Assembly: GCA_002256245.1 (NCBI GenBank)
Contig: NKIU01000003.1
Span: forward strand, 124,001-188,000
From: Pseudorhodobacter sp. PARRP1
Lineage (GTDB): Bacteria > Pseudomonadota > Alphaproteobacteria > Rhodobacterales > Rhodobacteraceae
Length of the DNA stretch: 64,000 bases
Direction of reading: 5' to 3'
The notes under the pieces are model-generated. The model did not search any database, was not told where the DNA came from, and was given only the letters and a program-made list of their open reading frames with translations. Position numbers and translations under genes: made by a program. How positions within the stretch are numbered: position 1 is the stretch's first letter; every line of letters starts with the position of its first letter. Below are positions 7,095 to 62,971 of the stretch, one piece after another.

Positions 7095-8015
7095 ATGTCA
7101 GCGACGAAAGACCACACTTTGGCCGCGGCGGGTCTGATCTTTAGCTATGCGATGATCATCGGCTTTACCGACAATTATGTGAAGGTGATCGCGGCCGAGG
7201 CGGGGTTGTGGCAGTTTCACTTCACGCGCACTTGCATGGCGATGGTGTTGCTGGCGGTTCTGGCGGGCATGTTGGGGTTGCGTCTGCGCCCGGTCAATCT
7301 GCGCGCCGTGCTGGCGCGATCGAGCATTCACGGGCTGGCGATGGTGATCTACTTCGGGGCGCTGGCGTTTTTGCCGGTGGCACTGGTCGCCGCGGGGCTG
7401 TTCACCGCGCCGATTTTCGTGCTGCTGATCTCACGCTTTGCCTATGGCCATGTGATCGGGCCGGTGCGGATTGTGGCGGTGGCGGTGGGGTTTGTCGGCG
7501 TTATTCTGGTGCTGGGGCCAGAGGCGATGTCGGGCGCGTCTTTGGCTGCGCTGCTGCCGGTGATTGCGGGGGCGATGTATGCGATGGGCAATATCGCCAC
7601 GCGCGAGTGGTGCCCCGAGGAGAGTGCAGAGACCCTGCTGGCCGGGTTCTTTTGCGCCTTGGGGGTGATTGGTGCGGTGGGGATGATTGCGCTGGCGGTC
7701 TGGCCGATTGCGGTGCCTGCGGGCAGCGATGGGTTCTTGCAGCGCGGGGCGGTCTGGGCCTCGGGGGAGTTTTATTTCTGGACGTTTGTGCAGGCGGCGG
7801 GATCGCTTTTGGGCGTCGGCATGATGATCCGCGCTTATCAGATCACCGAGGCCAGCCGGGCATCGGTGCTGGAATACATCATCCTGCCTGCGTCGGCGTT
7901 CTGGTCTTACATGATCTGGGGCGAGACTTTGACCGCGCTTGCGGTGTTCGGCATGGTGCTGATCGTGGCGGCAGGGGCGATGATCGCGCTGCGGGCAAAG
8001 GTGCAAGAGGCTTAG
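7095..8015 (+). CDS. DMT-family transporter (EamA)
   Basis: A 306-residue inner-membrane protein with about ten hydrophobic helices and the two-fold repeated EamA architecture of drug/metabolite transporters. The start at ATG 7095 is preferred because AAGGA lies at 7083-7087 with seven-base spacing; an upstream ATG at 7065 lacks this. Substrate unknown; family members export amino acids, nucleotides or drugs. Stands alone, divergent from the acyl-CoA synthetase and followed by repeat element A. Confidence 0.85.
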   Translation: MSATKDHTLAAAGLIFSYAMIIGFTDNYVKVIAAEAGLWQFHFTRTCMAMVLLAVLAGMLGLRLRPVNLRAVLARSSIHGLAMVIYFGALAFLPVALVAAGLFTAPIFVLLISRFAYGHVIGPVRIVAVAVGFVGVILVLGPEAMSGASLAALLPVIAGAMYAMGNIATREWCPEESAETLLAGFFCALGVIGAVGMIALAVWPIAVPAGSDGFLQRGAVWASGEFYFWTFVQAAGSLLGVGMMIRAYQITEASRASVLEYIILPASAFWSYMIWGETLTALAVFGMVLIVAAGAMIALRAKVQEA

Positions 8016-8038
8016 GGTGGATCGGTATTCGGTTTAGG

Positions 8039-8340
8039 CAATCTGGCGAAGGCCATTGCCTGCGCCATGCGATGCGGGTGCCGCTGACACCGCCGGGCCT
8101 CAATGGCCCGGCCAGCGCCCGACCCTCGGGCGGAGGAAGGAAACGCATTGCGTTTCCCCGCCCGCGTGGGTGGTTTCAACCTGTAGTCGGTTCAACGAGA
8201 AACCCCCTGAGGCCAGCGCCCGACCCGGCGGGCGAGAAGCGCCCGCCATCGGCGGGTCGGGCGCTGGCCGGGCCAGTGAGGCCCGGCGGTTTCAGCGGCA
8301 CCGGCACCGCATGGCGAAGGCGATGGCCTTCGCCAGATTG
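8039..8340 (+). repeat. Structured intergenic repeat, copy A (with terminal inverted repeats)
   Basis: About 302 bases with ends CAATCTGGCG...CGCCAGATTG. The first ~60 bases are a near-perfect inverted copy of the last ~60 (few mismatches by eye). Inside is a palindromic block containing ACGCATTGCGT and a large hairpin: 17-base arms 8211-8227 and 8253-8269, enclosing a nested GGCGGGCG/CGCCCGCC stem. The same modules occur at 9880-10128 and, inverted, at 19583-19802. No ORF that looks real lies inside. MITE- or REP-like by structure; it fills the whole gap between the EamA gene and tdk. Confidence 0.85.
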
Positions 8341-8363
8341 CGCAGGGTTAACTTCAATCTGGC

Positions 8364-8942
8364 TTAATCGCCGACAGCCTCGCGCCAATGCCTGCGGCAG
8401 AGGCTGACATAGGTCTCATTGCCGCCGATCTGCACCTGCTCGCCGTCTTTCAGCGCCCGCCCATCGGGGCCGCGCCGGATCACCATGGTGGCCTTCTTGC
8501 CGCATTGGCAGATGGTGCGGACCTCGCGCATCTCGTCCGCCCAGGCCAGGAGGGCGGCCGAGCCGGGGAAAAGATTGCCTTGGAAATCAACGCGAAGCCC
8601 GTAGCACATCACCGGCACGCCCAGATCATCCACCGCACGCGCCAGTTGCCAGACCTGCGGCTTGGTCAGGAATTGTGATTCATCCACAAAAACACAGGCG
8701 ATTTTCGCCACCGCAAAACGGTTCTTCAGCTTTTCGAACATATCGTCGTCTGGGCCGAAGGTATCGGCAGGCTCGCCAATGCCAATGCGGCTGGCGATCC
8801 GCCCCATGCCCGCGCGGTTGTCGAATTGCGCGGTGATCAGATACGTCTGCATCCCGCCCTCGCGATAGTTGTGCGCGGCTTGCAGCAGCAGGGTGGATTT
8901 GCCTGCGTTCATCGTGGAGTAATTGAAGTAAAGCTTGGCCAT
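8364..8942 (-). CDS. tdk: Thymidine kinase
   Basis: Phosphorylates thymidine (deoxyuridine) with ATP in salvage; cytosolic type II TK. Starting at the ATG ending at 8942 gives 192 residues, the usual length (MAKLYFNYSTMNAGKS contains the P-loop region). Other family features: DNRAGMGRIASRIG, the catalytic CVFVDESQFL, and the lasso with zinc-binding cysteines (CQCGKK and the C-terminal SLCRRHW). The longer frame upstream of 8942 is not conserved-looking and runs through a small inverted repeat (CATGCGCT/AGCGCATG, 8940-8959), so it is excluded. Functionally matches the salvage theme at the window start. Confidence 0.94.
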   Translation of the reverse strand: MAKLYFNYSTMNAGKSTLLLQAAHNYREGGMQTYLITAQFDNRAGMGRIASRIGIGEPADTFGPDDDMFEKLKNRFAVAKIACVFVDESQFLTKPQVWQLARAVDDLGVPVMCYGLRVDFQGNLFPGSAALLAWADEMREVRTICQCGKKATMVIRRGPDGRALKDGEQVQIGGNETYVSLCRRHWREAVGD

Positions 8943-9343
8943 GCGCTGCTTTAGCGCATGGCCAAGGGCGCTGGCAAGCCCGCCGCAACAAGGTGCGGGA
9001 CGCCGCGAAACACCGATACCTGAACCAACCGAAACACTGACACCAACAACACAAACCTTGGGTGGGGCCAGCCAGGCCGCCCGCAATTTTTACGCTCGAT
9101 CAGCCAAAACTGACCGCAAACCATGTGTTAGGCCCGCCGTGCGACCGTGACACATGCCCCAGTTTGCCCTGATGGACCTATGCACGGCGGAACCCCACCC
9201 ACACCAACGCTGGGGGCGCTGGCCACTCACTACAGTTCCGGTTGCCCGGAACACCTTTATGAATGACAAAAGCTTAGGACGGGATTAATGGGAAAAGACA
9301 AAGTGAATTCCCCGGATACCTGTTCGGGGAGGTAGGGCGCATA
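8943..9343. other. 401-bp intergenic region between divergent genes
   Basis: Promoter region for tdk (minus) and the HTH-like gene (plus). It contains a hairpin at 8940-8959 next to the tdk start and a perfect seven-base stem GTTCCGG/CCGGAAC with a TTGC loop at 9235-9252, not followed by T residues. No gene, RNA family or clear -35/-10 pair that I can defend. Confidence 0.5.
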
Positions 9344-9796
9344 ATGAGTACAGAGAGCTATCTGAAAAAGCACACCGAGGCCTTGGTCAAGGATGTGGGC
9401 ATCGAGGCCGCCTGCGCGCTGACCGGAAAGTCGAAGGCGACGCTGGGGCGCTATTATTCGGACTCGGGCGAGCATGACGACCGCTTCATGCCGATTGACG
9501 TGGTGGCGCAACTGGAATCTGCGGCGCGGTTTCCGCATGTGACCGAGGCTTTGGCCGATCTGCGCGGCATCACGCTCAGCTATGACCCCGAAAAGCGCAA
9601 CACCGACAGCAAGGGCGTGAATGCCGACGTGGTGGCGCTGGCGCAGCGTTTTGCGATGCTGATGGCCGAGTATAACTCGGCGATCGGCGATGGGGTGATC
9701 TCGGTCAATGAGGCCAAGCGGATGCTGCGGGAAACCTTGGCAATTCAACAGGTTCTACTGGAGATGAAGCTTAATCTGGAAGAAGAAGTCAGCTGA
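9344..9796 (+). CDS. Conserved small protein with HTH-like N-terminus
   Basis: 150 residues, not assigned to a named family. Residues ~15-38 (VKDVGIEAACALTGKSKATL) read as a helix-turn-helix of the kind found in phage CII-like regulators and could bind DNA; the remainder is helical and charged, ending in a Leu/Glu-rich segment (residues ~118-150). GGGGAGG lies about ten bases before the ATG. It stands alone with its own terminator, consistent with a single-gene transcriptional unit. Possible role as a regulator is inference from the HTH-like segment only. Confidence 0.75.
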   Translation: MSTESYLKKHTEALVKDVGIEAACALTGKSKATLGRYYSDSGEHDDRFMPIDVVAQLESAARFPHVTEALADLRGITLSYDPEKRNTDSKGVNADVVALAQRFAMLMAEYNSAIGDGVISVNEAKRMLRETLAIQQVLLEMKLNLEEEVS

Positions 9797-9820
9797 GGTT
9801 TTCGGGCCTTGGCGAGATGA

Positions 9821-9858
9821 AAAAGCGCCCGGATGAACTCCGGGCGCTTTTCGTTTTG
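9821..9858 (+). terminator. Intrinsic terminator after HTH-like gene
   Basis: AAAAGCGCCCGGA (9821-9833) pairs with TCCGGGCGCTTTT (9839-9852 region) across a short TGAAC loop, followed by CGTTTTG. Strong GC stem with A and T tracts on both sides, so it could work in either direction. It ends the gene whose stop is at 9796. Confidence 0.9.
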
Positions 9859-9879
9859 TCGGTCGTTTGGGCTTAAGGT

Positions 9880-10128
9880 GGATCGACAGTCACGCGCTTG
9901 GGTGCAGCCCGATCCGGGCGGAGACAGGAAACGCATTGCGTTTCCCCGCCCGCGTGTGCGGCTTGCCCCCTGTAGTCATGGTCGTGTGACGCCCCGTGAG
10001 GCCAGCGCCTGACCCGGCGGGCGAGAAGCGCCCGCCGAGGGCGGGGCGGGCGCTGGCCGGGCCTTTGGGGCCCGGCGGTTCCAGTTTCACCTGCACCGCA
10101 TGGCGAAGGCGATGGCCCTCGCCAAATG
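9880..10128 (+). repeat. Structured intergenic repeat, copy B
   Basis: Second copy of the family described at 8039. It starts with GGTGGATCGACAGTCACGCG (9879-9898), then CCGGGCGGA and the palindromic AAACGCATTGCGTTT (9930-9944), CCCTGTAGTCA, the large hairpin at 10000-10058, and the right end CCGCATGGCGAAGGCGATGG ending near CGCCAAATGG (10128). It lacks the left terminal repeat present in copy A. Lies between the HTH-like gene and the 3' end of the DEAD-box helicase gene. Confidence 0.85.
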
Positions 10129-10150
10129 GTCCATGGTGAATGTCGGGCGT

Positions 10151-11518
10151 CTAGCGCGGGCTGCGGTTGCCGCCTGCAGCGCGCGGTTTGGCCGCGCCAT
10201 CGCTGCGACGCGGTGCAAAGCTGCCGCCTGCGGGCTTCGGTTTACCCTGCGGTTTGGCCGCACCGGGCTTGCCGGGGGCTGCGCGCTGGATCGGCTGCGA
10301 TCCGGCTTTCTGGCCGCCACGACCTTGCCCCGGGCGCTGACCACGGTTCTGGCCGGGTTTCGGGGCGGCTGCGACCGCATCGGCGGCCCAAGGCGCGCCA
10401 CCCAACACGGGGATGGTCTTTTTCAGCAGCTTTTCAATGGCTTGCAACTCGCCCATTTCGGCCGGCGCACAGAAGGAAATCGAGGTTCCCTCTTTGCCCG
10501 CCCGTGCTGTCCGCCCGATCCGGTGGACGTAGTTTTCCGGCACGTTCGGCATATCGAAGTTATAGACATAGCGCACGCCCGGAATGTCGATGCCGCGCGA
10601 GGCCACATCGGTGGCGACCAGCACATCCAATTCCGCCTTGCGGAATTCGGTCAAAGTGCGGTCGCGCTGGTTCTGGCTTTTGTTGCCGTGGATCGAGCCC
10701 GCCTTGAAGCCCCATGCCACCAACAGCTTCATCAGCTTTTCCGAACCATGCTTGGTGCGGCCAAACACCAAAGCCTGTTCGCCCGGATGTTTCAGCAGAT
10801 ATTCCTTCAACATCAAAGCCTTATCGCCATTCGGCAGATAATGCACGCCTTGGTCAATCCGCTCCACCGGCTTGCCCGGAGGGGCGACTTGCACCTTGAT
10901 CGGGTTTTGCAGATAGGTCTCGGCGAGTTCTTCGATATCCTTCGGCATGGTGGCCGAGAACAGCAGGGTCTGGCGCTTCAGCGGGATATGCTTGGCGATT
11001 TTGCGCAAGGAATGGATGAAGCCCATGTCGAGCATGTGGTCGGCCTCGTCCAGCACCAGATAGCCGGTGGCGTGCAAGGACACATCGCCACGCTCCAAGA
11101 GGTCAATCAGGCGGCCGGGGGTGGCGACAAGGATATCGGCGCCGCGCTTCAGCTTTTCGGCCTGCTTGAACAGGCTTGCGCCGCCCACCACCATGGCGAC
11201 CTTGACGGCGGTGCCTTTGGTGAAAATCTCAAGGTTATCAGCGATCTGGCTGACCAACTCGCGGGTCGGGGCCAAGATCAGCGCGCGCACGGTTTTCGGC
11301 GCGGGCGGGTGGCCGAGATCAAGGATGCGGTGCAGCAAGGGCAGGCCGAAGGCGGCGGTTTTGCCGGTGCCAGTCTGCGCCAGACCCATCAGGTCTTTGC
11401 CCGCCATGATATGCGGGATCGCCTGCACCTGAATCGGCGACGGCATTTTCAGAGTGGTTTTTTCCAGTGCTTTCAGGATGCTTTCCGAAAGCCCAAGGTC
11501 TGCGAAAGTGGTGGTCAT
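10151..11518 (-). CDS. rhlE: DEAD-box ATP-dependent RNA helicase (RhlE-like)
   Basis: RNA remodelling enzyme likely acting in ribosome assembly or mRNA turnover. Starting at [15 protein letters not shown] (start at 11518) gives 455 residues. Motifs in order: Q motif [22 protein letters not shown], Ia PTRELVSQI, Ib [47 protein letters not shown]. The last ~90 residues are a low-complexity, strongly basic tail (Gly/Arg/Lys/Pro/Ala), typical of RhlE-type helicases for RNA binding. The reported longer frame (to 11593) adds unconserved residues. Confidence 0.92.
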
Positions 11519-11895
11519 AACAGTCTTTCCGGCGGCCCAAAGCCGCCCGTCCACCCCAAAGGGGCGGCAGTGGGAAGCGACACCCCCTCGCATCAGGCCC
11601 GTGCCCGATACCGTGACTGCCGCGGAACCCCTGCGTGCGGTGGGAACCAGTCTCCATGGCCTTACACATGCTCACGCGGCACGGGCACTATGGGTGAGGG
11701 GGAGATGGGGGAATTGCGGGGATTTGTCAAGGGGGGGCGTGTTTGGCGGCAGTCGCGACGGGTTGGCTAGAATTCTTCCGATGTTGAGCCTTGCTTTGAT
11801 GGCCCGGCAAGGTAATGCTTACACTCAAAGCGATGCCTGTATGTATAACAAGATCATAATGATACGGGGCGCCGGGCAGAAGAAGGGGCAAGGGA
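11519..11895. other. 377-bp gap upstream of helicase gene
   Basis: Divergent upstream region. The part nearest the helicase is GC-rich and could hold a long 5' leader, which is common for cold- or autoregulated DEAD-box helicases; this is inference. The part near the orphan membrane gene (11780-11880) is visibly AT-richer, including TGTATGTATAACAAGATCAT. No gene or confident motif seen. Confidence 0.45.
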
Positions 11896-12339
11896 ATGCG
11901 TGCGGTTTTGGCGGTTTGTTTTGTGGCGTTATATTTCGCCGGTTGGTTTGCCATAATTGCGGCTAAATATGCGATATTGTCGGTTTCCAGCCAATTGACA
12001 TGGAGATATCTGGACATCGCCTGGTACTGGGAAATCGTTTTGTCGTTGGCGGCCGGCGTCTTCTTTTACTTTCTGTTCAGTTGGATCATCAAGAAAGTAT
12101 ATGGAGCGTCGTATTTGACCCATGTTGATAGCCAGTCGGATGAGAAATACATCTCGCATTACGAGGGCCGGGTCGAGTCCGGGCTGTTCAGCAATCGCGT
12201 CAACTTGAAGCCTCAGATGACCAGCGACCGCGACCAGGCGTTCAACTTGGTGATGATCGTGATGGTTTTCGACGGCTTTGCTTTCTACAGCGGCTTTATC
12301 GAAGACAAACTGGTGCATTTTCTGCGGCTAGGATATTAA
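11896..12339 (+). CDS. Orphan small membrane protein
   Basis: 147 residues, family not recognised. Two strong hydrophobic helices lie at residues ~1-26 and ~42-68 (WYWEIVLSLAAGVFFYFLFSWII), followed by a ~50-residue polar segment and a third, weaker hydrophobic stretch near 118-135. AGAAGGGG precedes the ATG with about seven-base spacing. Base composition, aromatic content and codon choice look less GC-biased than the neighbours, and the region just upstream is AT-richer, so recent acquisition is possible. It ends convergent with carB. Confidence 0.7.
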   Translation: MRAVLAVCFVALYFAGWFAIIAAKYAILSVSSQLTWRYLDIAWYWEIVLSLAAGVFFYFLFSWIIKKVYGASYLTHVDSQSDEKYISHYEGRVESGLFSNRVNLKPQMTSDRDQAFNLVMIVMVFDGFAFYSGFIEDKLVHFLRLGY

Positions 12340-12351
12340 CCGCACGAAAAT

Positions 12352-12373
12352 GGGCAAGGCAGAGCGCCTTGCC
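12352..12373 (-). terminator. Hairpin ending carB
   Basis: Directly after the carB stop, GGCAAGGC and GCCTTGCC (12353-12360 / 12366-12373) form an eight-base stem with a five-base loop; on the minus strand it is followed by CATTTTCG. Plausible intrinsic terminator in the 34-bp convergent gap. Confidence 0.65.
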
Positions 12374-15300
12374 TCACCCCTGCAACGTCCGCACCCCATA
12401 GCCCTCGCCCCGTGCCTGCATCGCCTGCACCACCGCAATCGCGGCGGCGGCGGTGGTGAAGTAGGGGATCTTGTCCATCAGCGCCACGCGGCGGATGTCG
12501 CGGCTGTCGGTGACGGCTTGGGCGCCTTCGGTGGTGTTCATCACCATCGCTATGTCGTTGTTTTTCAAGCGATCGACGATGTTCGGGCGGCCTTCATAGA
12601 CCTTGTTCACCAGCGTCGCCTTGATGCCTTGCGCATTCAGCCAACCGGCGGTGCCGCGGGTGGCGACGATCTCAAACCCAAGCGCCACAAGGTCGCGCAT
12701 CGCGGTGGCGAAGGCGGCGGTTTTGTCCATATCCTTGATCGACACAAAGGCGCGGCCTGCGTCGGGCAGCATCACGCCTGCGCCCATTTGGGCTTTCAGG
12801 AAGGCCAAGGCGAAGGTGCGATCCCAGCCCATGACTTCGCCGGTCGAGCGCATTTCTGGCCCCAGAACCGGATCGACGCCGGGGAAGCGGGCGAAGGGGA
12901 GGACGGCTTCTTTCACGCTAAACCAAGGGGTTATCGGATCGGCGAGGGTGAAGGGGTTGGCCAAGGGCAGGGGGGTATCGGGGCCGACACCCTGGGCATA
13001 AGCGGCGCGCATCGGGAAGTTTGACATCGGCTCGCCTGCCATCAGGCGGGCGGCGATGGCGGCAATCGCGCTGTCGGTGGCTTTGGCGACGAAGGGCACG
13101 GTGCGGGACGCGCGCGGGTTGACCTCGAGCACGAAAATCACGCCGTCTTTGATCGCAAATTGCACGTTCATCAAACCGACCACGTTCAGCGCAAGTGCCA
13201 TCTGCACGGTCTGGCGTTTCAACTCGGCGATGGTTTCGGCGGTCAGCGAATGGGGTGGCAGGCAGCAGGCCGAATCACCGGAGTGAACGCCGGCTTCCTC
13301 AATATGTTCCATGATTCCAGCGACATGCACCTCTTTACCGTCGCTTAACGCATCTACGTCAACCTCAATCGCACCAGATAGGTAGCTGTCGAGCAGCACC
13401 GGGCTGTCGCCGGACACCTGCACGGCGGTGGCAATGTAGCGTTCAAGCTGGGCGTCGTCGCGGATGATCTCCATCGCGCGGCCACCCAAAACGAAGGAGG
13501 GGCGGATGACCAAAGGATAACCTACGTCTTTCGCGACAGCGAAAGCTTCATCGCGCGAACGCGCGGTGCCGTTGTGCGGCTGTTTCAGGGCCAGCTTGTG
13601 CAGAAGCTGTTGGAAACGCTCGCGATCTTCGGCCAGATCAATCGCGTCTGGCGTGGTGCCCAGGATCGGGATGCCTTCGGCGTGCAGGGCGTTGGCGAGT
13701 TTCAGGGGCGTCTGGCCGCCGAATTGCACGATCACACCGTGCAGCGTGCCGTTTTCCTGCTCGACCCGCAGGATTTCAAGGACGTGTTCAAGGGTGAGCG
13801 GCTCGAAATACAGACGGTCCGAGGTGTCGTAGTCGGTGGACACGGTTTCGGGGTTGCAGTTGACCATGATCGTCTCGAAGCCCGCATCCGTCAGCGCATA
13901 GCAGGCATGGCAGCAGCAATAGTCAAACTCGATGCCCTGACCGATGCGGTTCGGGCCACCGCCGAGGATAACGACCTTTTTGGCGTTCGACGGGCGCGCT
14001 TCGCATTCCACATCGCCCATCGCGGGGGCCTCGTAGGTGGAATACATGTAGGGGGTCTGGGCCTCAAACTCGGCGGCGCAGGTGTCGATGCGTTTGAACA
14101 CGGCGTTCACGCCAAGGTTGCGGCGGGCGCGGCGGATTTGGGCCTCATCCCGGCCGGTCAGTTTGGCAAGGCGGGCGTCGGTGAAGCCCATCATCTTCAG
14201 CTTGCGGATGCCTGCGGCATCGAGCGGCAGGCCTTTGGCGCGGATGACTGCCTCGGCGTCGATGATTTCGCGGATGCGGGCGAGGAACCATGGGTCGAAG
14301 GACGTGATCGCGTTGATTTCGTCGTCGGTCAGGCCGTGGCGCATGGCTTGGGCGATGACGCGCAGGCGGTCGGGCGTGGCTTTCGACAGCGCCAGCGTGA
14401 TCGCGGCGCGGTCGGGGGTGCCGGTGGCGGCCACGCCGGGGATGGCTATTTCGTCAAAGCCCGACAGGCCGGTTTCAAGGCTTGCCAGCGCTTTTTGCAT
14501 GGATTCGTGGATGGTGCGGCCAATCGCCATGACCTCGCCCACCGATTTCATCGCGGTGGTGAGGTTGGGTTCCGAGCCGGGGAATTTCTCAAACGCGAAG
14601 CGCGGGATTTTGGTGACGACATAGTCGATGGAAGGCTCGAACGAGGCGGGCGTGACCTTGGTGATGTCGTTGTCCAACTCGTCCAGCGTGTAGCCGACGG
14701 CGAGTTTGGCGGCGACTTTGGCGATGGGGAAGCCGGTGGCTTTCGACGCGAGGGCAGAGGAGCGGGAGACGCGCGGGTTCATCTCGATCACCACCATGCG
14801 GCCATCGGCGGGGTTGATCGCCCATTGCACGTTGGAGCCGCCGGTTTCCACGCCGATTTCACGCAGCACGGCAATCGAGCCGTTACGCATGATCTGGTAT
14901 TCTTTGTCGGTTAGCGTCAGGGCGGGGGCGACGGTGATGCTGTCGCCGGTGTGCACGCCCATCGGGTCGATGTTCTCAATCGCGCAGATGATGATGGCGT
15001 TGTCGGCGGTGTCGCGCACCACCTCCATCTCAAATTCTTTCCAACCCAGCAGCGATTCGTCGATCAGGATCTGCGCCATCGGGCTGGCCTCTAAGCCCGA
15101 GCGGCAGATCGCTTCGTAGTCGTCGCGGTTGTAGGCGACGCCGCCGCCGGTGCCGCCGAGGGTGAAGGCGGGGCGGATGATGGCGGGGAGGCCGACATAT
15201 TCGATGGCGGTCATACATTCGGCCACGCCTGCGGCGATGTCATATTTGCCAGAGGCCAGTTTGGGCGCGGCGATGATGGTGGCTTTGGGGTTTTCAAGGC

Positions 15301-15718
15301 CGATGCGGTCCATCGCCTCGCGGAACAGTTTGCGATCTTCTGCCATTTCGATGGCCGGACGCTTGGCGCCGATCAGCTCGACATTGAACTTTTCCAACAC
15401 GCCGAGGTCTGCGAGCGCAAGGGCGGTGTTCAGGCCGGTTTGGCCGCCCATGGTGGGCAGCAGGGCATCGGGGCGCTCTTTTTCGATGATTTTGGCGACG
15501 ACCTCGGGGGTGATCGGCTCGATATACGTGGCATCGGCCAGGCCGGGGTCGGTCATGATGGTGGCGGGGTTCGAGTTGACGAGGATGACCCGGTAGCCCT
15601 CTTCGCGCAGGGCTTTGCAGGCTTGGGCACCCGAGTAGTCAAACTCGCACGCTTGGCCGATGACGATGGGGCCTGCGCCGATGATCATGATGGATTTGAT
15701 ATCGGTTCTTTTCGGCAT
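12374..15718 (-). CDS. carB: Carbamoyl-phosphate synthase large subunit
   Basis: Makes carbamoyl phosphate from bicarbonate, ATP and ammonia channelled from CarA; feeds arginine and pyrimidine synthesis. 1114 residues from the ATG at 15718 ([20 protein letters not shown]), preceded by GGGGG with short spacing. Two homologous ATP-grasp halves are visible: [19 protein letters not shown] near residue 10 and [20 protein letters not shown] near 590; each has an EVNPR/EMNPR metal-site motif. The final ~130 residues are the MGS-like allosteric domain ([22 protein letters not shown]). carA is about 37 kb away at 52841, so the subunits are not in one operon here. Confidence 0.97.
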
Positions 15719-15813
15719 GGCGGCCCCCATAAGCAAAACTTTGCGGGTTATAGCCAGCACGCGCCGGGGCGCAAGGGGCATTTGGCAGATGGTTGACGCT
15801 TGGGCCGGGGAGG

Positions 15814-15857
15814 CGGATTTTTCGAAAAATCCGTGCCGATTTCCGTAGCGGAAATCG
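15814..15857. repeat. Two adjacent palindromes upstream of carB
   Basis: A 20-base perfect palindrome CGGATTTTTCGAAAAATCCG (15814-15833) is followed by a nine-base stem with a three-base loop, CGATTTCCG/CGGAAATCG (15837-15857). Both lie 96-139 bases upstream of the carB start. They could be hairpins in the carB leader or protein-binding sites; the sequences resemble short shuffled palindromes such as AAATCC/GGATTT at 1190-1211. Confidence 0.65.
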
Positions 15858-15876
15858 TGGCCGTGGCAGAGGTGAC

Positions 15877-15906
15877 AACGGCGGCCCTTTGGTCTGGGCC
15901 GCCGTT
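15877..15906 (-). terminator. Strong hairpin after permease gene
   Basis: Perfect 11-base stem AACGGCGGCCC (15877-15887) with GGGCCGCCGTT (15896-15906), eight-base loop, 22 bases after the permease stop on the minus strand. It lacks a good T tract, so it may act as a 3' mRNA-stabilising hairpin or need Rho. Confidence 0.6.
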
Positions 15907-15928
15907 GGTTGCTTGGTGATGTCTGGTG

Positions 15929-17512
15929 TTACTTTTGACCGACAGCAGCCTCTGCCGCGGCGATGGCGGCTTTGCGGGCGGCGATTTTCTCGCCGGTGGG
16001 CGGGCCTTCAAAGCGGCGGTTTTCCACCGCGAACCACAACACCATCGCCAGCGCGATGAAGCCCGCAACGATATACAGCACACGACCGTTCGGCGGAGCC
16101 ACAGCGATGAACAGGATCACCCCCATACCGACCACGGACAATACGGTGACCAGCTTATAAAGGCCGCCAGACATCGCCCAAGGGCCGGGGGTCGGCCATT
16201 TCGAGGTGCCATAGGCAAACATGCCCGCAATCAGCGGCACCGTGAAGGATAGAAACAGGAAGACGAGTGTTGAGTTGACTACGATGAAGTAAATCGAGGT
16301 TCCCGCCAGCTTGATCGACATCGCTAGCACGACGTAAAGGATTGACAGAACCGTCGCCGTCCAGATGGCGTTGACAGGCGTGCGGTATTTCGGCGATACG
16401 GTTGCCAGCGCCTTGGACCCGACGGGCATGCCGTCGTCACGCGAGAAAGCGAACAGCATCCGGCTAGCGGATGTCACCGTGGCGAGGCCGCAGATCAGCT
16501 GCGCGATAAAGATGCCCAGATAGATCACCAGCATGAGGCTGCTGGGCATGATGGCTTCCACCGTTTTGAAGAACACGAGGCCGCCTTGCGCCGCGCCTGC
16601 CGCCATATCCGGCACTGCAAGCATGATTGCGCAGATCATCACCCAACCGACGAGCGAGGACCACAAGACTGCCGAGACGATGCCTTGTGGCACCGACATT
16701 GCAGCGTTTTTGGTTTCCTCAGAGGTGTGGGCTGAGGCGTCATAGCCGGTGATGGTGTAGACCGGAAGCAGCAGGCACAGCAGGAACAGATACCCCATGT
16801 TGTCCGACTGCGGGAAGATACCGCCACCCGCGTCGCCCGAGTAGTTGGTGAAGGTCCACAGCCGCGAGATGTCGATGGCGGGGGCGAACCACAGGCAGGC
16901 GATCACCAGAACGGCGGTGGTCGCAAAGATCAGATAGCCGGAAATGTCGGTCAGGAAGGTGGTGGCCTTGATGCCGACGTGGTTGAAAATCGCCTGTATG
17001 ATGGTGATCACGGCCACGAAGCCCACGATTTCCATATCCGAGTTGGGGAATGGTGTGATTGCACCGTCTGCACCGACTGTGCCGAACATCGCCCCGAACG
17101 CGCCTTGGAAGAAATAGGCGGTGCCGATGTTAATCGCCCCCAGCACGGTGATCAGACCGAGCAGGTTCAGCCAGGCGGTCAGCCAGCCGAGAAAACGCCC
17201 GCCGAGGATTGACGACCAGTGATAGAGCCCGCCCGCCGTCGGGAAGGCCGAGGCGATTTGTGCCATCGCAAGGGCGAACATGCCCGACAGCGCGCAGCCG
17301 ACGATCCAGCCGATGCCAGCACCCGCACCGCCGACCGAGGAAATCGCCTGCGCGAAAGAGTTGATCCCGCCCGACAGAATACAGATGATCGAGAAGGAAA
17401 TCGCAAAGTTAGAGAATTTGGACATCGAGCGCGAAAGCTCTTGGGCGTAGCCCATGCCGTGCAGGACTTTCATATCGTCATGCTGGGCCTTGTCATCGTA
17501 GTTTTCAGCCAT
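15929..17512 (-). CDS. APC-family amino-acid permease
   Basis: 527-residue inner-membrane transporter with about twelve hydrophobic helices. The start at MAENYDDKAQHDD is preferred because GGAGGG precedes it with good spacing. N-terminal features (SKFSNFAISFSIICILSGGI) are the conserved first helix of the amino acid-polyamine-organocation superfamily, closest in style to the ACT/GABA-permease-like (BAT1/UGA4) group, so an amino acid, GABA or choline-like substrate is possible. Single gene with a ~300-base region upstream shared with pabB. Confidence 0.85.
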   Translation of the reverse strand: MAENYDDKAQHDDMKVLHGMGYAQELSRSMSKFSNFAISFSIICILSGGINSFAQAISSVGGAGAGIGWIVGCALSGMFALAMAQIASAFPTAGGLYHWSSILGGRFLGWLTAWLNLLGLITVLGAINIGTAYFFQGAFGAMFGTVGADGAITPFPNSDMEIVGFVAVITIIQAIFNHVGIKATTFLTDISGYLIFATTAVLVIACLWFAPAIDISRLWTFTNYSGDAGGGIFPQSDNMGYLFLLCLLLPVYTITGYDASAHTSEETKNAAMSVPQGIVSAVLWSSLVGWVMICAIMLAVPDMAAGAAQGGLVFFKTVEAIMPSSLMLVIYLGIFIAQLICGLATVTSASRMLFAFSRDDGMPVGSKALATVSPKYRTPVNAIWTATVLSILYVVLAMSIKLAGTSIYFIVVNSTLVFLFLSFTVPLIAGMFAYGTSKWPTPGPWAMSGGLYKLVTVLSVVGMGVILFIAVAPPNGRVLYIVAGFIALAMVLWFAVENRRFEGPPTGEKIAARKAAIAAAEAAVGQK

Positions 17513-17810
17513 TGTTACCCTCCGAACCGTTGGTTGGTCGTTGTTATTGTTCTTGTTGGTGCGGCGTTGTGCCGTCCCTGCGTGCAGGGAAGCGTGTATT
17601 TTACAGTCTGGCAAGCACTGAATAGAAGTTTACAGAAATCAACGCTGTTGCGACGCGCATGGTGGGGGCGCGGGACATTTTCGCGTCGCAAATGCGCAAA
17701 AGACGGGCGGGCCAGCACTGGATTTGCGCGCGGGGCTGACCTAGGTGTTGGGGCTGACCCGGTGTCTTGAAACGCAGAACCGGGTTGGCAAAACGACAAG
17801 GGGCGCAGGC
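17513..17810. other. Divergent promoter region, permease / pabB
   Basis: About 300 bases. Contains a small palindrome CCCTGCGTGCAGGG (17577-17590) and an AT-richer stretch around 17598-17645 (GTATTTTACAGTCTGG...). No gene or confident site seen. An in-frame extension of pabB up to 17745 is possible but unconserved-looking. Confidence 0.4.
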
Positions 17811-18956
17811 GTGATCCTGATTGAGGACGGACCATTCGGGCAGCCCGTGCTGTTTGACGGCGCAGAGGCGCAGGTTGTGGCGTGGGATGCGCAGGACGTG
17901 GCCCCGGCTTTGGCCGCTTTGGATGCGGCGCGCGCGCAGGGCAAATGGGTGGCGGGCTATATCAGCTATGAGGCGGGCTATGCGCTGGAGCCGAAGCTTG
18001 CGGGCCTGACGCTTGCGCGCGACGCGGCGCGGCCCTTGCTGGTGTTTGGCATTTTCGCAGGCCCCGGCGATGCGGGTGTGGTGTTGGCTGAGGCGGCGGC
18101 GCAGGCGCGCGGGGTGGCGGTGGCGGCGCTGGAGCCGGCGATCAGCCGCGCCGACTATGGTGCGGCGATGGGCCGGGTGATGGCCTATATCGCGGCGGGC
18201 GATTGCTATCAGATCAACCTGACGTTTCCGCTCGGCACGCGGTTGCTGCAAGGCTCGGCGCTTGGGCTTTATGGCGCGTTGCGGGCGCGGCAGGCGGTGG
18301 GGCATGGCGCTTACTTGGATGTGGGCGTGGGGCCGGTTTTGGTGTCGCGCTCGCCTGAGTTGTTCATCCGCACCAATGCGGCGGGGCGGATCGAGGCGCG
18401 GCCGATGAAGGGGACGGCTCCGCGAGATGCCGATCCGGTGCGGGATGCGGAACTGGCCGAGGCTTTGCGGGCTTCGGCCAAGGATCAGGCGGAAAACCTG
18501 ATGATCGTGGATCTTTTGCGCAACGATATCAGCCGGGTGGCGAAGGTCGGCTCGGTCAAGGTGCCCGAGTTGTTCGCGGTGGAGCATTACGCCACCGTGC
18601 ATCAGATGGTCAGCCGCGTGGTCGGGCAACTGGTGGCGGCGCCGAGCATGGAAGGGTTGATGCCTGCGCTGTTTCCCTGCGGCTCGATCACCGGGGCGCC
18701 GAAAATTCGGGCGATGCAGATCATTCACGAGGTTGAGGCGTTTCCGCGCGGGATTTATTGCGGTGCGATTGGCTGGATGGCCCCGGATGGGGCTTCGGCG
18801 TTCAATGTGGCGATTCGCACGTTGTCGGTGTTTGACGAAGGCCGGATTGAGTTGAACGTCGGCGGCGGGGTGGTGCAGGACAGCACGGCGGATGGCGAGT
18901 GGGAGGAGGCACTGTGGAAAGCGCGTTACATGCAGGGGCTGGCGCGGCAGGGCTGA
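17811..18956 (+). CDS. pabB: Aminodeoxychorismate synthase component I
   Basis: Converts chorismate plus ammonia to 4-amino-4-deoxychorismate for p-aminobenzoate and folate. The GTG at 17811, preceded by AAGGGG, yields 381 residues. The C-terminal chorismate-binding domain is clear: YIAAGDCYQINLTFPL, RPMKGTAPRDADP, DLLRNDISRV, ALFPCGSITGAPKIRAM and the final GGGVVQDSTADGEWEE. It is followed by, and overlaps by 43 bases, a class IV aminotransferase-fold gene that completes the PABA pathway. The stand-alone amidotransferase PabA is not in the window. Confidence 0.92.
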   Translation: MILIEDGPFGQPVLFDGAEAQVVAWDAQDVAPALAALDAARAQGKWVAGYISYEAGYALEPKLAGLTLARDAARPLLVFGIFAGPGDAGVVLAEAAAQARGVAVAALEPAISRADYGAAMGRVMAYIAAGDCYQINLTFPLGTRLLQGSALGLYGALRARQAVGHGAYLDVGVGPVLVSRSPELFIRTNAAGRIEARPMKGTAPRDADPVRDAELAEALRASAKDQAENLMIVDLLRNDISRVAKVGSVKVPELFAVEHYATVHQMVSRVVGQLVAAPSMEGLMPALFPCGSITGAPKIRAMQIIHEVEAFPRGIYCGAIGWMAPDGASAFNVAIRTLSVFDEGRIELNVGGGVVQDSTADGEWEEALWKARYMQGLARQG

Positions 18957-19540
18957 AGCTGATCGAGACGCTGGCTTGGGATGGCGCGGCGCTGGTGCGG
19001 CTGCCGCTGCATCTGGCGCGGCTTTCGGCTTCGGCGTGGGCTTTGGGCTGGGGCTGTGATGTGGCGGCGGTTGAGGCTGCGCTGCGGGCGGCGGTGCCGG
19101 TTGGTGCTGCGCGGATGCGGTTGACGCTGGACGGCGCGGGTGTGGTGGACGTGCAGGCGGCGGCTTTGCCTGCGGGCAAGGCGGTTTGGCGGGTGGGGCT
19201 GGCGGCAGAGCGGCTGGATTCGGGCGATGTGTGGCTTTCGGTGAAATCAACGCGGCGGGCGGCTTATGATGCGGCGCGGGCGGATCTGGCTGCGGGGCTG
19301 GACGAGGTGATTTTGTGCAACGAGCGCGGCGAGGTCTGCGACGGCTCTATCACCACGGTATTCTTCGATCGCGGGCAGGGGATGCGCACGCCGCCGCTTT
19401 CGTGTGGTTTGTTACCGGGGGTGCTGCGGGCGGAAATGGCGGTCGCCGAGGAGGTGCTGTTGGCGCGCGATCTGCCCCATGTGAAGCTGTGGGTTGGCAA
19501 TTCCTTGCGCGGGCTTATCCCGGCTGTCTGGGTGATCTGA
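18914..19540 (+). CDS. pabC: Aminodeoxychorismate lyase-like class IV aminotransferase-fold protein
   Basis: Likely releases p-aminobenzoate and pyruvate from aminodeoxychorismate using PLP. GGAGGAGG (18902-18909) sits just ahead of GTG 18914, giving 208 residues. Family features: GLKLIETLAWDG at the N-terminus, catalytic-lysine region WLSVKSTRRAAYD near residue 108, CNERGEVCDGSITTVFF near 132 (the NExG..EG..SN-like PLP loop) and SCGLLPGVLR. It is short compared with the ~270-residue PabC of enterobacteria, as usual for this paired arrangement. Overlap with pabB implies translational coupling. Confidence 0.85.
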   Translation: MESALHAGAGAAGLKLIETLAWDGAALVRLPLHLARLSASAWALGWGCDVAAVEAALRAAVPVGAARMRLTLDGAGVVDVQAAALPAGKAVWRVGLAAERLDSGDVWLSVKSTRRAAYDAARADLAAGLDEVILCNERGEVCDGSITTVFFDRGQGMRTPPLSCGLLPGVLRAEMAVAEEVLLARDLPHVKLWVGNSLRGLIPAVWVI

Positions 19541-19582
19541 TCGCGCGCGCCGCGTTGAGGATGGATAGACATTGATCTTGGG

Positions 19583-19802
19583 CCATTTGGCGAAGGCCAT
19601 CGCCTTCGCCATGCGCGACGAGGGGCGCTGCAACTGCCGGGCCTGAATGGCACGGCCAGCGCCCGACCCGCCGATGGCGGGCGCTTCTCGCCCGCCGGGT
19701 CGGGCGCTGGCCTTGTGGCGTGATGGCTGAAATGACTACAGGGTGAAACCGCCCCCGCGGGCGGGAAAACGCGATGCGTTTTCTGCTTCCGCCCGGACTA
19801 AG
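19583..19802 (-). repeat. Structured intergenic repeat, copy C (inverted)
   Basis: Third copy, in the opposite orientation to A and B. Read on the plus strand it begins CCATTTGGCGAAGGCCATCG, then the large hairpin at 19654-19712 with the same nested CGCCCGCC core, then TGACTACAGGG, the palindromic AAAACGCGATGCGTTTT (19767-19783) and CCGCCCGGACTAAG. Fills the convergent gap between pabC and the M48 protease gene. Confidence 0.85.
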
Positions 19803-29182: not shown

Positions 29183-29220
29183 CATTTCATCTTGGCTCAA
29201 ATACTCCCGCCGGAGGCTTC
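29183..29220 (+). repeat. Short conserved intergenic repeat (CTCCCGCCGGAGG type), copy 1
   Basis: TTCATCTTGGCTCAAATACT followed by CCCGCCGGAGGCTTCC. The CCTCCGGCGGGAG core and flanking AAATACT/TTCATCTTGG are shared with two inverted copies at 31943-32031 and a degenerate one at 1222-1253. It lies just before the ribosome binding site of the IMPACT-domain gene. Confidence 0.75.
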
Positions 29221-29241
29221 CACAGAGGAGAAGAGGACCGC

Positions 29242-31942: not shown

Positions 31943-32031
31943 GCTTCACATTGGCACAAATACTCCCGCCGGAGGCATCCGGCATTGGCCGCAGAAGCCT
32001 CCGGCGGGGATATTTAAGAACGGATGAAACG
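31943..32031. repeat. Inverted pair of short intergenic repeats, copies 2 and 3
   Basis: Copy 2 (TTCACATTGGCACAAATACT, then CCCGCCGGAGGC, 31946-31977) faces copy 3 (GCCTCCGGCGGGGATATTTA, then GAACGGATGAA, 31999-32029). The GCCTCCGGCGGG/CCCGCCGGAGGC arms can pair into a 12-base stem across a ~21-base loop. Placed between the MATE gene and a convergent gene, so it may end both transcripts. Confidence 0.75.
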
Positions 32032-32116
32032 CTTTGCGCGGCCAAGACCCGAAGGGGCGAGGCCGCGGGGGCGGGACGCAAATTTTAGTCTTGTTTGAGC
32101 TAATGCACCGGCGCGG

Positions 32117-55736: not shown

Positions 55737-55770
55737 TTGGCGCACCCAGGCGCGTGAAGGTTGATCCACC
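55737..55770 (-). repeat. Remnant of the long intergenic repeat (copy D)
   Basis: Read on the minus strand: GGTGGATCAACCTTCACGCG then CCTGGGTGCGCC. This matches the left end of copy B at 9879-9912 (GGTGGATCGACAGTCACGCG, CTTGGGTGCAGCC) with few differences, directly after the stop of the VOC gene, as copy A follows the EamA stop. The internal hairpin modules are missing. Confidence 0.6.
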
Positions 55771-56151
55771 CTAGCCGACCGGCGTGCAGATCTCGATCAG
55801 GGTGCCTTCGGGCGCGCGGACATAGGCCAGCGTCTGCCCCCACGGCATTTCGGTGATGGGCTTGACCAGTTCTGCCCCTGCCGCAACCGCCCGCGCCAGT
55901 GCTGCGCTGACATCATCCGTCTCAAACGCCAACTCGTAGGACGGCTTGGCGGGGGGCGTGGTGGCGACATCTTTGCCAATGGTGGCCATCAGGGCATGCG
56001 AGGAAAACGCAAGCTTGGTATTTCCCGTCAGCAACTCGCCATAGTCGCCGGCTTCGTGTAGAAATCCCGTCTCAAAGCCGAAGGCGGCTTGATAGAATTT
56101 CAACGTAGCGGGCACCGAGGCGACATAAAGAATGGTGTAGCGGTAGATCAT
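55771..56151 (-). CDS. VOC-fold protein (glyoxalase-like)
   Basis: 126 residues: MIYRYTILYVASVPATLKFYQAAFGFETGF at the start, SYELAFETDDVSAALARAVAAGAELVKPITEMPWGQTLAYVRAPEGTLIEICTP at the end. Two VOC half-modules with plausible metal ligands (His absent at the first position, Glu at the last), so enzymatic activity is uncertain. 39 bases downstream of DUF2244 on the same strand. Confidence 0.8.
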   Translation of the reverse strand: MIYRYTILYVASVPATLKFYQAAFGFETGFLHEAGDYGELLTGNTKLAFSSHALMATIGKDVATTPPAKPSYELAFETDDVSAALARAVAAGAELVKPITEMPWGQTLAYVRAPEGTLIEICTPVG

Positions 56152-61900: not shown

Positions 61901-62971
61901 ATGAAGAAACTTCTCGTTCTGTCCACCGCCTTGACCACCATCGCATTTGCCGCGCAGGCCGATGTGACCGTGATGTCGTGGGGTGGCGCTTACGGTGCTG
62001 CGCAAACCGAAGCACACGTAAAGCCTTTCGCTGAGAAAACCGGCATCAAGACCACGATGACCGACAGCGACAACCCCGCCACCCCGATCAAAGCGATGGT
62101 CGAGGCGGGCAACGTCACCGTGGACGTGGCTTCGGTGGAATATGCCGATGCGATCCGTCTGTGCGACGAAGGCGTGCTGGAGCCGATTGATCCGGCAAGC
62201 CTGCCCGCGGGCGCTGACGGCGTTCCCGCCGTTGACGATTTCCTGCCCGGTGCCATCACCGATTGCGGTGTATCGACCGACATCTGGGCCACGGTTTTCG
62301 CCTATGACACCACCAAGTTCCCCGAAGGCCCGAAAACCGCCGCTGACTTCTTCGATCTGACCAAGTTCCCCGGCAAGCGCGGTCTGCACAAGGGTGCAAA
62401 AGCGGTTCTGGAATTTGCGCTGATGGCGGATGGCGTGGCTCCGGCTGACGTTTATGCCACTTTGGGCACCCCGGAAGGCGTGGACAAGGCTTTTGCCAAA
62501 CTCGACACCATCAAAAAAGACGTGGTGTGGTGGGAAGCAGGCGCACAGCCGCCGCAACTGCTGGCTGACGGCGAAGTCGCGATGACCTCGGCCTATAACG
62601 GCCGGATTTTCAACGCCGCCATCGGTGAGGGCAAGCCGTTCCAGATCGTCTGGGATGCACAGACGTTCGAGAACGAAATGTATGTGATCCCGAAGGGCGC
62701 ACCGAACAAGGACGAGGCGTTGCAGTTCATCGCCTACGCCACCTCGACCGAAGGCATGCAGGCGCAAGCAACCCAGATCTCTTACGGTCCGGCGCGCAAA
62801 TCGGCCAACGCCACCCCGATCATGTATAAAGACGGGAAGACCCTGATGGGTCCGAACGTTCCGACCGCACCCGAGAACATGGCCAATGCACTGGGTTCGT
62901 CGTTTGAATTCTGGGTCGATCACGACGCAGAACTGAACGACCGCTTCAACGCATGGCTTGCGGCAAACTGA
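61901..62971 (+). CDS. ABC transporter periplasmic binding protein (PotD-like)
   Basis: 356 residues. Signal peptide MKKLLVLSTALTTIAFAAQA, then the binding-protein fold: TVMSWGGAYGAAQTEAHVKPFAEKTGI, NPATPIKAMVEAGNVTVDVASVEYADAI, and hinge/ligand region VVWWEAGAQPPQLLADGEVAMTSAYNGRIF. The family binds spermidine/putrescine or other small cations. Good GGGAG site upstream. Followed by a strong terminator before the permease gene. Confidence 0.92.
   Translation: MKKLLVLSTALTTIAFAAQADVTVMSWGGAYGAAQTEAHVKPFAEKTGIKTTMTDSDNPATPIKAMVEAGNVTVDVASVEYADAIRLCDEGVLEPIDPASLPAGADGVPAVDDFLPGAITDCGVSTDIWATVFAYDTTKFPEGPKTAADFFDLTKFPGKRGLHKGAKAVLEFALMADGVAPADVYATLGTPEGVDKAFAKLDTIKKDVVWWEAGAQPPQLLADGEVAMTSAYNGRIFNAAIGEGKPFQIVWDAQTFENEMYVIPKGAPNKDEALQFIAYATSTEGMQAQATQISYGPARKSANATPIMYKDGKTLMGPNVPTAPENMANALGSSFEFWVDHDAELNDRFNAWLAAN

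Follow-up and report, generated by a model that had tools for sequence, protein, structure and literature searches.

A family of intergenic multi-hairpin repeats at gene tails in Pseudorhodobacter sp. PARRP1

We analyzed a 64,000-nucleotide stretch of the Pseudorhodobacter sp. PARRP1 genome (contig NKIU01000003.1, positions 124,001 to 188,000; here called the window) that holds copies of a repeated intergenic element built from a row of hairpins. Most copies lie downstream of genes, chiefly where two genes converge. It is probably, if by no means securely, a small non-autonomous mobile DNA element that resembles a miniature inverted-repeat transposable element (MITE), has the hairpin row as its body and is tolerated at gene tails. 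At ~195 to 290 bp it falls below 500 bp, the MITE size range, and it is repeated and holds no transposase gene. As a kind, such a MITE-like repeat is ordinary; its conserved multi-hairpin body, its edge at stop codons and its home between convergent genes are unusual.

The family comprises several subfamilies, of which subfamilies 1 and 2 share a common series of four hairpins: H1, which is bulged; after a linker, the long H2, which contains an inner hairpin and bulges on its 3' side; then H3 and H4. A sequence-only reading had proposed three copies and a remnant in the window, and all four are real. The covariance model R1, trained on 22 rows that included copy B (L001) but neither copy A nor copy C, recovered the three copies with E values of 1.7e-40 to 5e-37 (bit scores below). 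The remnant is a minus-strand left end that starts at a stop codon and differs from the 21-nt end pattern by 2 mismatches at 55753-55773. As called by our own gene caller, copies A, B and C all lie between convergent genes, where they occupy the 3 widest of the window's 15 convergent gaps. The features are as follows, with genes named by Pfam.

8015-8364, plus strand: copy A with its ends; TA flanks at 8013-8014, inside the TAG stop of an EamA-family gene, and at 8365-8366, inside the stop of a thymidine kinase gene
8127-8335, plus strand: H1-H4 core of copy A (model, 195.6 bits)
8038-8125, minus strand: inverted partial second copy within copy A (model match 8044-8164 minus, 72.1 bits)
9821-9851, plus strand: intrinsic-terminator-like hairpin of the gene before copy B, outside the element
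9876-10151, plus strand: copy B with its ends; TA flanks at 9874-9875 and at 10152-10153, the latter inside CTA, the TAG stop of the DEAD-box helicase gene to the right
9915-10124, plus strand: H1-H4 core of copy B (model, 179.3 bits)
9915-9952, plus strand: H1 of copy B; an outer and an inner stem, separated on the 5' side by a 5-nt bulge, and a loop of 3 nt
10000-10058, plus strand: H2 of copy B; an outer stem that keeps 14 of 16 pairs in this copy, with an inner 8-bp hairpin (AGAAG loop) and a 3' bulge of 6 nt
10059-10073, plus strand: H3 of copy B
10101-10124, plus strand: H4 of copy B, with GATG loop
19558-19834, minus strand: copy C; begins on the final base of the TAG stop that closes the adjoining minus-strand gene (peptidase M48 family); its other end has no TA and reads CCTCA
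19588-19795, minus strand: H1-H4 core of copy C (model, 182.8 bits)
55738-55773, minus strand: remnant, consisting only of a left end that begins at the TAG stop of a glyoxalase-family gene on the minus strand

The ends of the element differ from those first proposed. Copy A had been credited with terminal inverted repeats (TIRs) of ~60 bases; its arms in fact span 99 nt (8038-8136 and 8243-8341, 89% complementary) and exist because of the inverted partial second copy, the next-best model match in the window after copies A to C, so that they are not the family's own ends. Similarly, CGCATGGCGAAGGCGATGG, taken for the right end, is hairpin H4; the element extends ~32 nt beyond it, to ...GTGAATGTCGATCCRCCC adjoining TA, and this right end mirrors the left end TAGGGYGGATCGACATTCAC. 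The consensus of the window's subfamily is ~290 nt long, and its ends, with places aligned on one strand, form a perfect 21-nt inverted repeat, TTAGGGCGGATCGACATTCAC ... GTGAATGTCGATCCGCCCTAA (5 of the 43 fetched places, L038-L042, have no end alignment, and L043, the inverted partial copy in A, was excluded from later counts). Where present, the ends mostly lie at a constant distance from the core, and the subfamily often abuts TA. The consensus ends pair over 21 nt, yet the best-conserved fold is internal: across 34 copies of this subfamily, paired columns were 98.0% identical and unpaired columns 81.0%. Subfamily 2, which accounts for 5 of the own genome's blastn places and is represented in four same-genus genomes, has the same hairpin series with different stems; by eye, loops, bulge positions and hairpin order are alike in subfamilies 1 and 2. 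Subfamily 3 (~195 nt) was first noticed as a repeat inside a flank (L263:5459-5650; G000 C5 ~121350-121550). It has another sequence and a related fold, with counterparts of H1 and H2 plus one additional hairpin but without H4, and it also occurs in G003, G004, G006, G011, G012 and G014.

The element is abundant in its 4.35-Mb genome, which we compared within a same-genus set of 15 genomes, itself included. Plain blastn with copy B alone located 46 places, and R1 gave 66 matches, of which 56 reached at least 90 bits, so the family extends far beyond the three copies from which the sequence-only reading had started. Subfamily 3 adds, among the matches listed, 21 places at E ≤ 1e-30 (H1 recognised by profile; L263 and L317, being the same copy, count as one). 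Together, the 77 strong places (56 + 21) make up a sizeable part of the genome's non-coding DNA. Copies also cluster: three share a single intergenic gap (L004, L013 and L025; G000 C20:44482-45333), and two share another (L028 and L029; C24:61190-61895). Within the genus, 8 of 15 genomes (own included) had an R1 match at E ≤ 0.001; G011 and G012 each had no more than a single weak match, and several of the weak ones in G003 coincide with subfamily 3, which is present in at least 7 of the 15. In a scan of the family with one genome per genus, restricted to the best 12 candidates per genome and stricter filters, R1 matched at least 16 of 198 genomes, own included, at E ≤ 1e-8. A copy B search of phage records and an exact scan of IMG/VR viral contigs for the H2 inner hairpin gave no match, and both would miss subfamily 3. 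A plasmid search, equally blind to subfamily 3, yielded a single record, from Leisingera; there the sequence matching H2-H3 is flanked by genes for a TAXI TRAP binding protein and a TRAP permease. Our literature searches turned up no description of this repeat, and an exact text search for the H2 hairpin also returned nothing. At gathering score, Rfam called only two tRNAs in the window and nothing in 14 loci with relatives; a permissive scan of 8000-10200 gave 7 matches, all under their gathering scores.

Relatives show empty sites, and therefore the element inserts. Copy A was missing at the syntenic junction in all 10 anchored relatives, copy B in all 8 (2 more lacked an anchor), L009 in 8 of 8, and L152, of subfamily 2, in all 6 that could be anchored (4 others could not). 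At site A, the convergent stops of the EamA-family and thymidine kinase genes overlap in TTAA, TTAG or CTAA in G004, G011, G005 and G013; the same junction in the window reads ...GCTTAG|GGTGGATC...CTGGC|TTAATC.... Likewise, where G006 carries a subfamily 3 element between two TAs, G008 and G013 have CTAG with overlapping stops; G005 and G007 hold other short sequence there, and five further genomes were unmatched on the left side. TA thus stands on both sides of copies A and B and of the G006 element, with a single TA in the relatives at site A and at the G006 site, a pattern that with such diverged relatives falls short of proving a 2-bp target duplication; copy C has no second TA. The L152 site is clean only in G011, with 2 bp between the genes. 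The junctions at L024 (where the own genome is ~940 bp longer) and L006 were unusable as empty sites. The L041 junction holds a subfamily 2 copy in the own genome, a subfamily 3 copy in G003 and a truncated one of subfamily 3 in G004; five relatives have short or other sequence there. The pattern points tentatively to a hot spot or to some use. Among 80 named loci around thymidine kinase, an R1 match adjoins the gene in Rhodobacter sp. SGA-6-6 (163.9 bits) and a weak one in R. amnigenus (32.2 bits); three of the others have weak matches elsewhere and 75 have none, with R1 blind to subfamily 3.

Other repeats were seen at such junctions. L261 carries at ~8324-8419 an 80- to 90-bp repeat of GGCCCCGGATCAAGTCCGGGGC-like palindromes, found also in G003, G004 and G011 and, by eye, in junctions where relatives lack the element. 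A short repeat, TTCATCTTGGCTCAAATACTCCCGCCGGAGGC, occurs in the window at 29186-29221, 31945-31980 and 31994-32039, one copy being inverted; by eye, several relatives have something similar behind stop codons at the L009 junction. An A/T-rich hairpin (CAAATTTCTTCGAAGAAATTTG and similar), which looks like a two-way intrinsic terminator, is frequent at the thymidine kinase junction (L193, L196, L201, L206, L210, L212, L214, L225, L228 and L231).

The position beside gene stops, noted from the three copies, was borne out in the larger set. With edge and gene end related by distance alone, 19 of the 37 copies of the window's subfamily had an inbound gene ending at their edge (10 on the left, 11 on the right, 2 on both), and the outermost base of the element often doubles as the final base of that gene's stop. 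The 21 edge stops comprised 15 TAG, 6 TAA and no TGA, whereas the window's 62 genes used TGA 29 times, TAA 19 times and TAG 14 times; the absence of TGA was significant (p 1.8e-6). TAG was also somewhat favoured over TAA (15/21 versus 14/33; Fisher p 0.035), as expected if the element brings the G. This exact stop-codon edge is confined to the window's own subfamily. A target TA completed to TAG or TAA by the element's own base would be a simple way for a mobile element to be harmless, and the insertions apparently leave genes unharmed.

The stems stay paired while their sequence changes. On 22 sequences of subfamilies 1 and 2, the structure was 92.8% paired, and the covariation that the sequence-only reading had proposed to look for was present: 17 of 54 pairs had changed on both sides (shuffled mean, 12.0), as had 89 cells (shuffled mean, 28.7), and none of 500 shuffles reached either value. 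The count of further pair types was reached by 7 of 500. Shifting the partner by one column lowered pairing from 93% to 44 to 49%, a control that favours the structure because it was drawn from one of the 22 sequences. Selection on one RNA strand was considered and rejected. A first count gave 110 G-T against 36 A-C cells (p 7e-10), an artefact because the pairs had been chosen with RNA energies on the H1-to-H4 strand. With strand-neutral pairs, predicted from both strands, the numbers were 32 and 33, and unpaired transitions were balanced (330 versus 361), so there is no sign of such selection. Doubly changed Watson-Crick cells outnumbered single intermediates (148 versus 65, counted as copies, not events). 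The wobble and double-change pattern fits folded DNA, RNA from both strands or self-correction of palindromes.

The orientation of neighbouring genes was assessed at 56 own-genome places of subfamilies 1, 2 and their kin (L001-L042 and L146-L159, a set that differs from the 56 matches of at least 90 bits, since L159 scored 50.8; the second piece at C7:484631 was not counted apart, and the inverted partial copy was excluded). Genes were called by a codon-usage script trained on the window, of which single calls may be wrong. Thirty-four places were convergent, 20 co-directional and 2 divergent; with shared gaps collapsed (three copies in one, two in another), 31 of 53 were convergent. In the window without the copies' gaps, convergent arrangements accounted for 12 of 59 gene pairs and 442 of 7,665 intergenic bp. 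YTAR sites outside genes or in stops were convergent in 43 of 137 cases and divergent in 42 of 137, across 121 kb of the own genome, about half of it selected for holding copies. Against this availability the convergent excess had a p of 4e-5, and therefore site choice alone is insufficient; if selection bars divergent gaps, the p is only 0.019. R1-type copies in relatives were less one-sided (12 convergent, 19 co-directional, 2 divergent and 4 unclassifiable; n = 37). For subfamily 3, the counts were 12 convergent, 8 co-directional and 1 divergent in the own genome (n = 21, one duplicate removed), and 9 of 17 were convergent in relatives.

These data are compatible with a different role, in which the element is a domesticated two-way gene-end device whose hairpins stop or protect transcripts arriving from both convergent genes and which is retained for its usefulness. 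We regard this alternative as rather unlikely. The convergent excess over YTAR availability, the equal preservation of stems for both strands, the filling of the L041 junction by two subfamilies, the occupied thymidine kinase junction in both the own genome and Rhodobacter sp. SGA-6-6 and the Leisingera match between two TRAP transporter genes all speak for it. However, no intrinsic terminator was called inside copies A to C, the only copies scanned, and copy B lies behind the terminator-like hairpin at 9821-9851. A similar hairpin (AAAAGCGCCCGGATGA..) is found in G003, G012, G004 and G011, all without copy B, which suggests that termination of this gene did not depend on the element. (A 29-nt inverted repeat, 93% matched, covers the end of the same gene at 9782-9810 and recurs at 62325-62353.) In addition, the stops at site A overlap with nothing between them in at least four relatives, the distribution is patchy, and the convergent excess weakens on the assumption that selection excludes divergent gaps. 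A role as terminator or at the 3' end is possible but unproven. The conserved multi-hairpin fold, the compensatory changes and the loops that look alike in subfamilies 1 and 2 would also suit a structured non-coding RNA propagating by way of RNA, in the manner of a SINE or retron; this is improbable, given that strand-neutral G-T cells do not exceed A-C cells, leaving no single RNA strand favoured, and that no Rfam family matched.

Movement as a REP/BIME-like element by a Y1 (HUH, RAYT) transposase acting on single-stranded hairpins would account for hairpins near both ends and for extragenic, GC-rich palindromes. This, too, is improbable, marginally more so. Y1_Tnp was borderline only, in G000, G004 and G007 (3 of 15 genomes), a distribution that does not match the element's, and G003, G005 and G010 carry the element without it; RAYT was accordingly rejected as the mover. 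TA stands on both sides at the best-resolved sites, and HUH insertions are not known to follow such a pattern. Of the two labels that the sequence-only reading had offered, REP-like is therefore not supported, as the size (~195-290 bp against 20-40 bp) also indicates, and MITE-like is the better reading of a repeat family with recurring ends, covarying stems, empty sites and no transposase found. Finally, self-templated correction of palindromes, rather than function, might keep the stems paired. The excess of doubly changed cells over intermediates, the lack of a favoured strand and the inverted partial duplication in copy A agree with such correction. Nevertheless, we judge it very improbable: loops, bulge positions and hairpin order are, by eye, also shared between subfamilies 1 and 2, and correction alone would not slow change in stems relative to linkers (98.0% versus 81.0%).

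For the MITE-like element, we propose that a TA-targeting cut-and-paste (DDE) transposase supplied from elsewhere would move it, as proposed for the TA-flanked RUP repeats. Insertion at a YTAR site in a stop codon would double the TA, and the element's first G or A would restore TAG or TAA. At overlapping convergent stops, insertion would leave both genes whole and separate neither from its promoter, so that such insertions would survive. The stems may persist because whatever machinery mobilises the element requires folded DNA, or because each palindrome serves as its own template for re-copying. We infer that the transposase is of the IS630 kind, from the TA flanks and from analogy with RUP, whose movement has been attributed to IS630-Spn1 (PMC2229807).

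Several observations weigh against the MITE-like reading. It is unusual for a MITE to retain an elaborate internal fold. The TIRs of single copies are degenerate, exceeding the 99% level of shuffled flanks on the left in 18 of 37 copies, on the right in 19 and on both sides in 10, and none are evident by eye in subfamily 3. Eighteen of the 37 copies have no stop at their edge. Subfamily 3 lies near stops, in many cases within 25 nt, at varying distances, and 9 of its 31 near stops are TGA, so the exact stop-edge rule fails there. At L152, junctions in relatives other than G011 hold 78-95 bp of other sequence and are not clean empty alleles, and the filling of L041 by another subfamily in two relatives is not predicted by chance insertion. 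Nor did a parent transposon or insertion sequence (IS) come to light: no inverted pair of GGATCGACATTCAC was found at IS distance with at most 1 mismatch in the 15 genomes, which are draft assemblies whose hit list was read by eye, other genera not being searched. A bolder version of the proposal, which we hold as speculative, is that the family belongs to a class of mobile DNA defined by fold. In that case, an enzyme would read the hairpin series as folded DNA and target YTAR in tail-to-tail stop codons, insertions would rebuild the stops, and several subfamilies that differ widely in sequence would use the same or related machinery. The question raised by a fold without strand preference across subfamilies is whether folded DNA is the substrate of transposition or whether these are recruited two-way gene-end signals.

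Among known systems, ERIC/IRU, Correia/NEMIS and RUP are described in PMC2229807 as short, transposase-free and foldable, with inverted ends, target duplication and TA termini. The present element is likewise short, transposase-free and foldable, with TA termini in part. In contrast to those repeats, which fold by pairing their two ends (same source), it conserves internal hairpins, has weak TIRs, is GC-rich and gathers at stop codons and convergent genes. REP/BIME sequences are associated with the RAYT transposase. They resemble the element as extragenic GC-rich palindromes and differ in size, in ends and in that association, REP being described in PMC3733652 as palindromes of 20-40 bp tagged at one end. 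The Caulobacter CcrM-associated intergenic repeats (CIR) are alphaproteobacterial too, ~110 bp long, with two arms and a linker, TA termini and unclear mobility according to PMC2229807; CIR has GANTC at a loop, whereas our family has four hairpins and GANTC at 0.14-0.54 per kb. YPAL/RU-2 of Yersinia (~168 bp), as outlined there, shares internal inverted repeats and both empty and filled sites, and may affect upstream mRNA. It differs from the PARRP1 element in having no TA termini and in target duplications of 3-26 bp, at or beside dyad symmetry.

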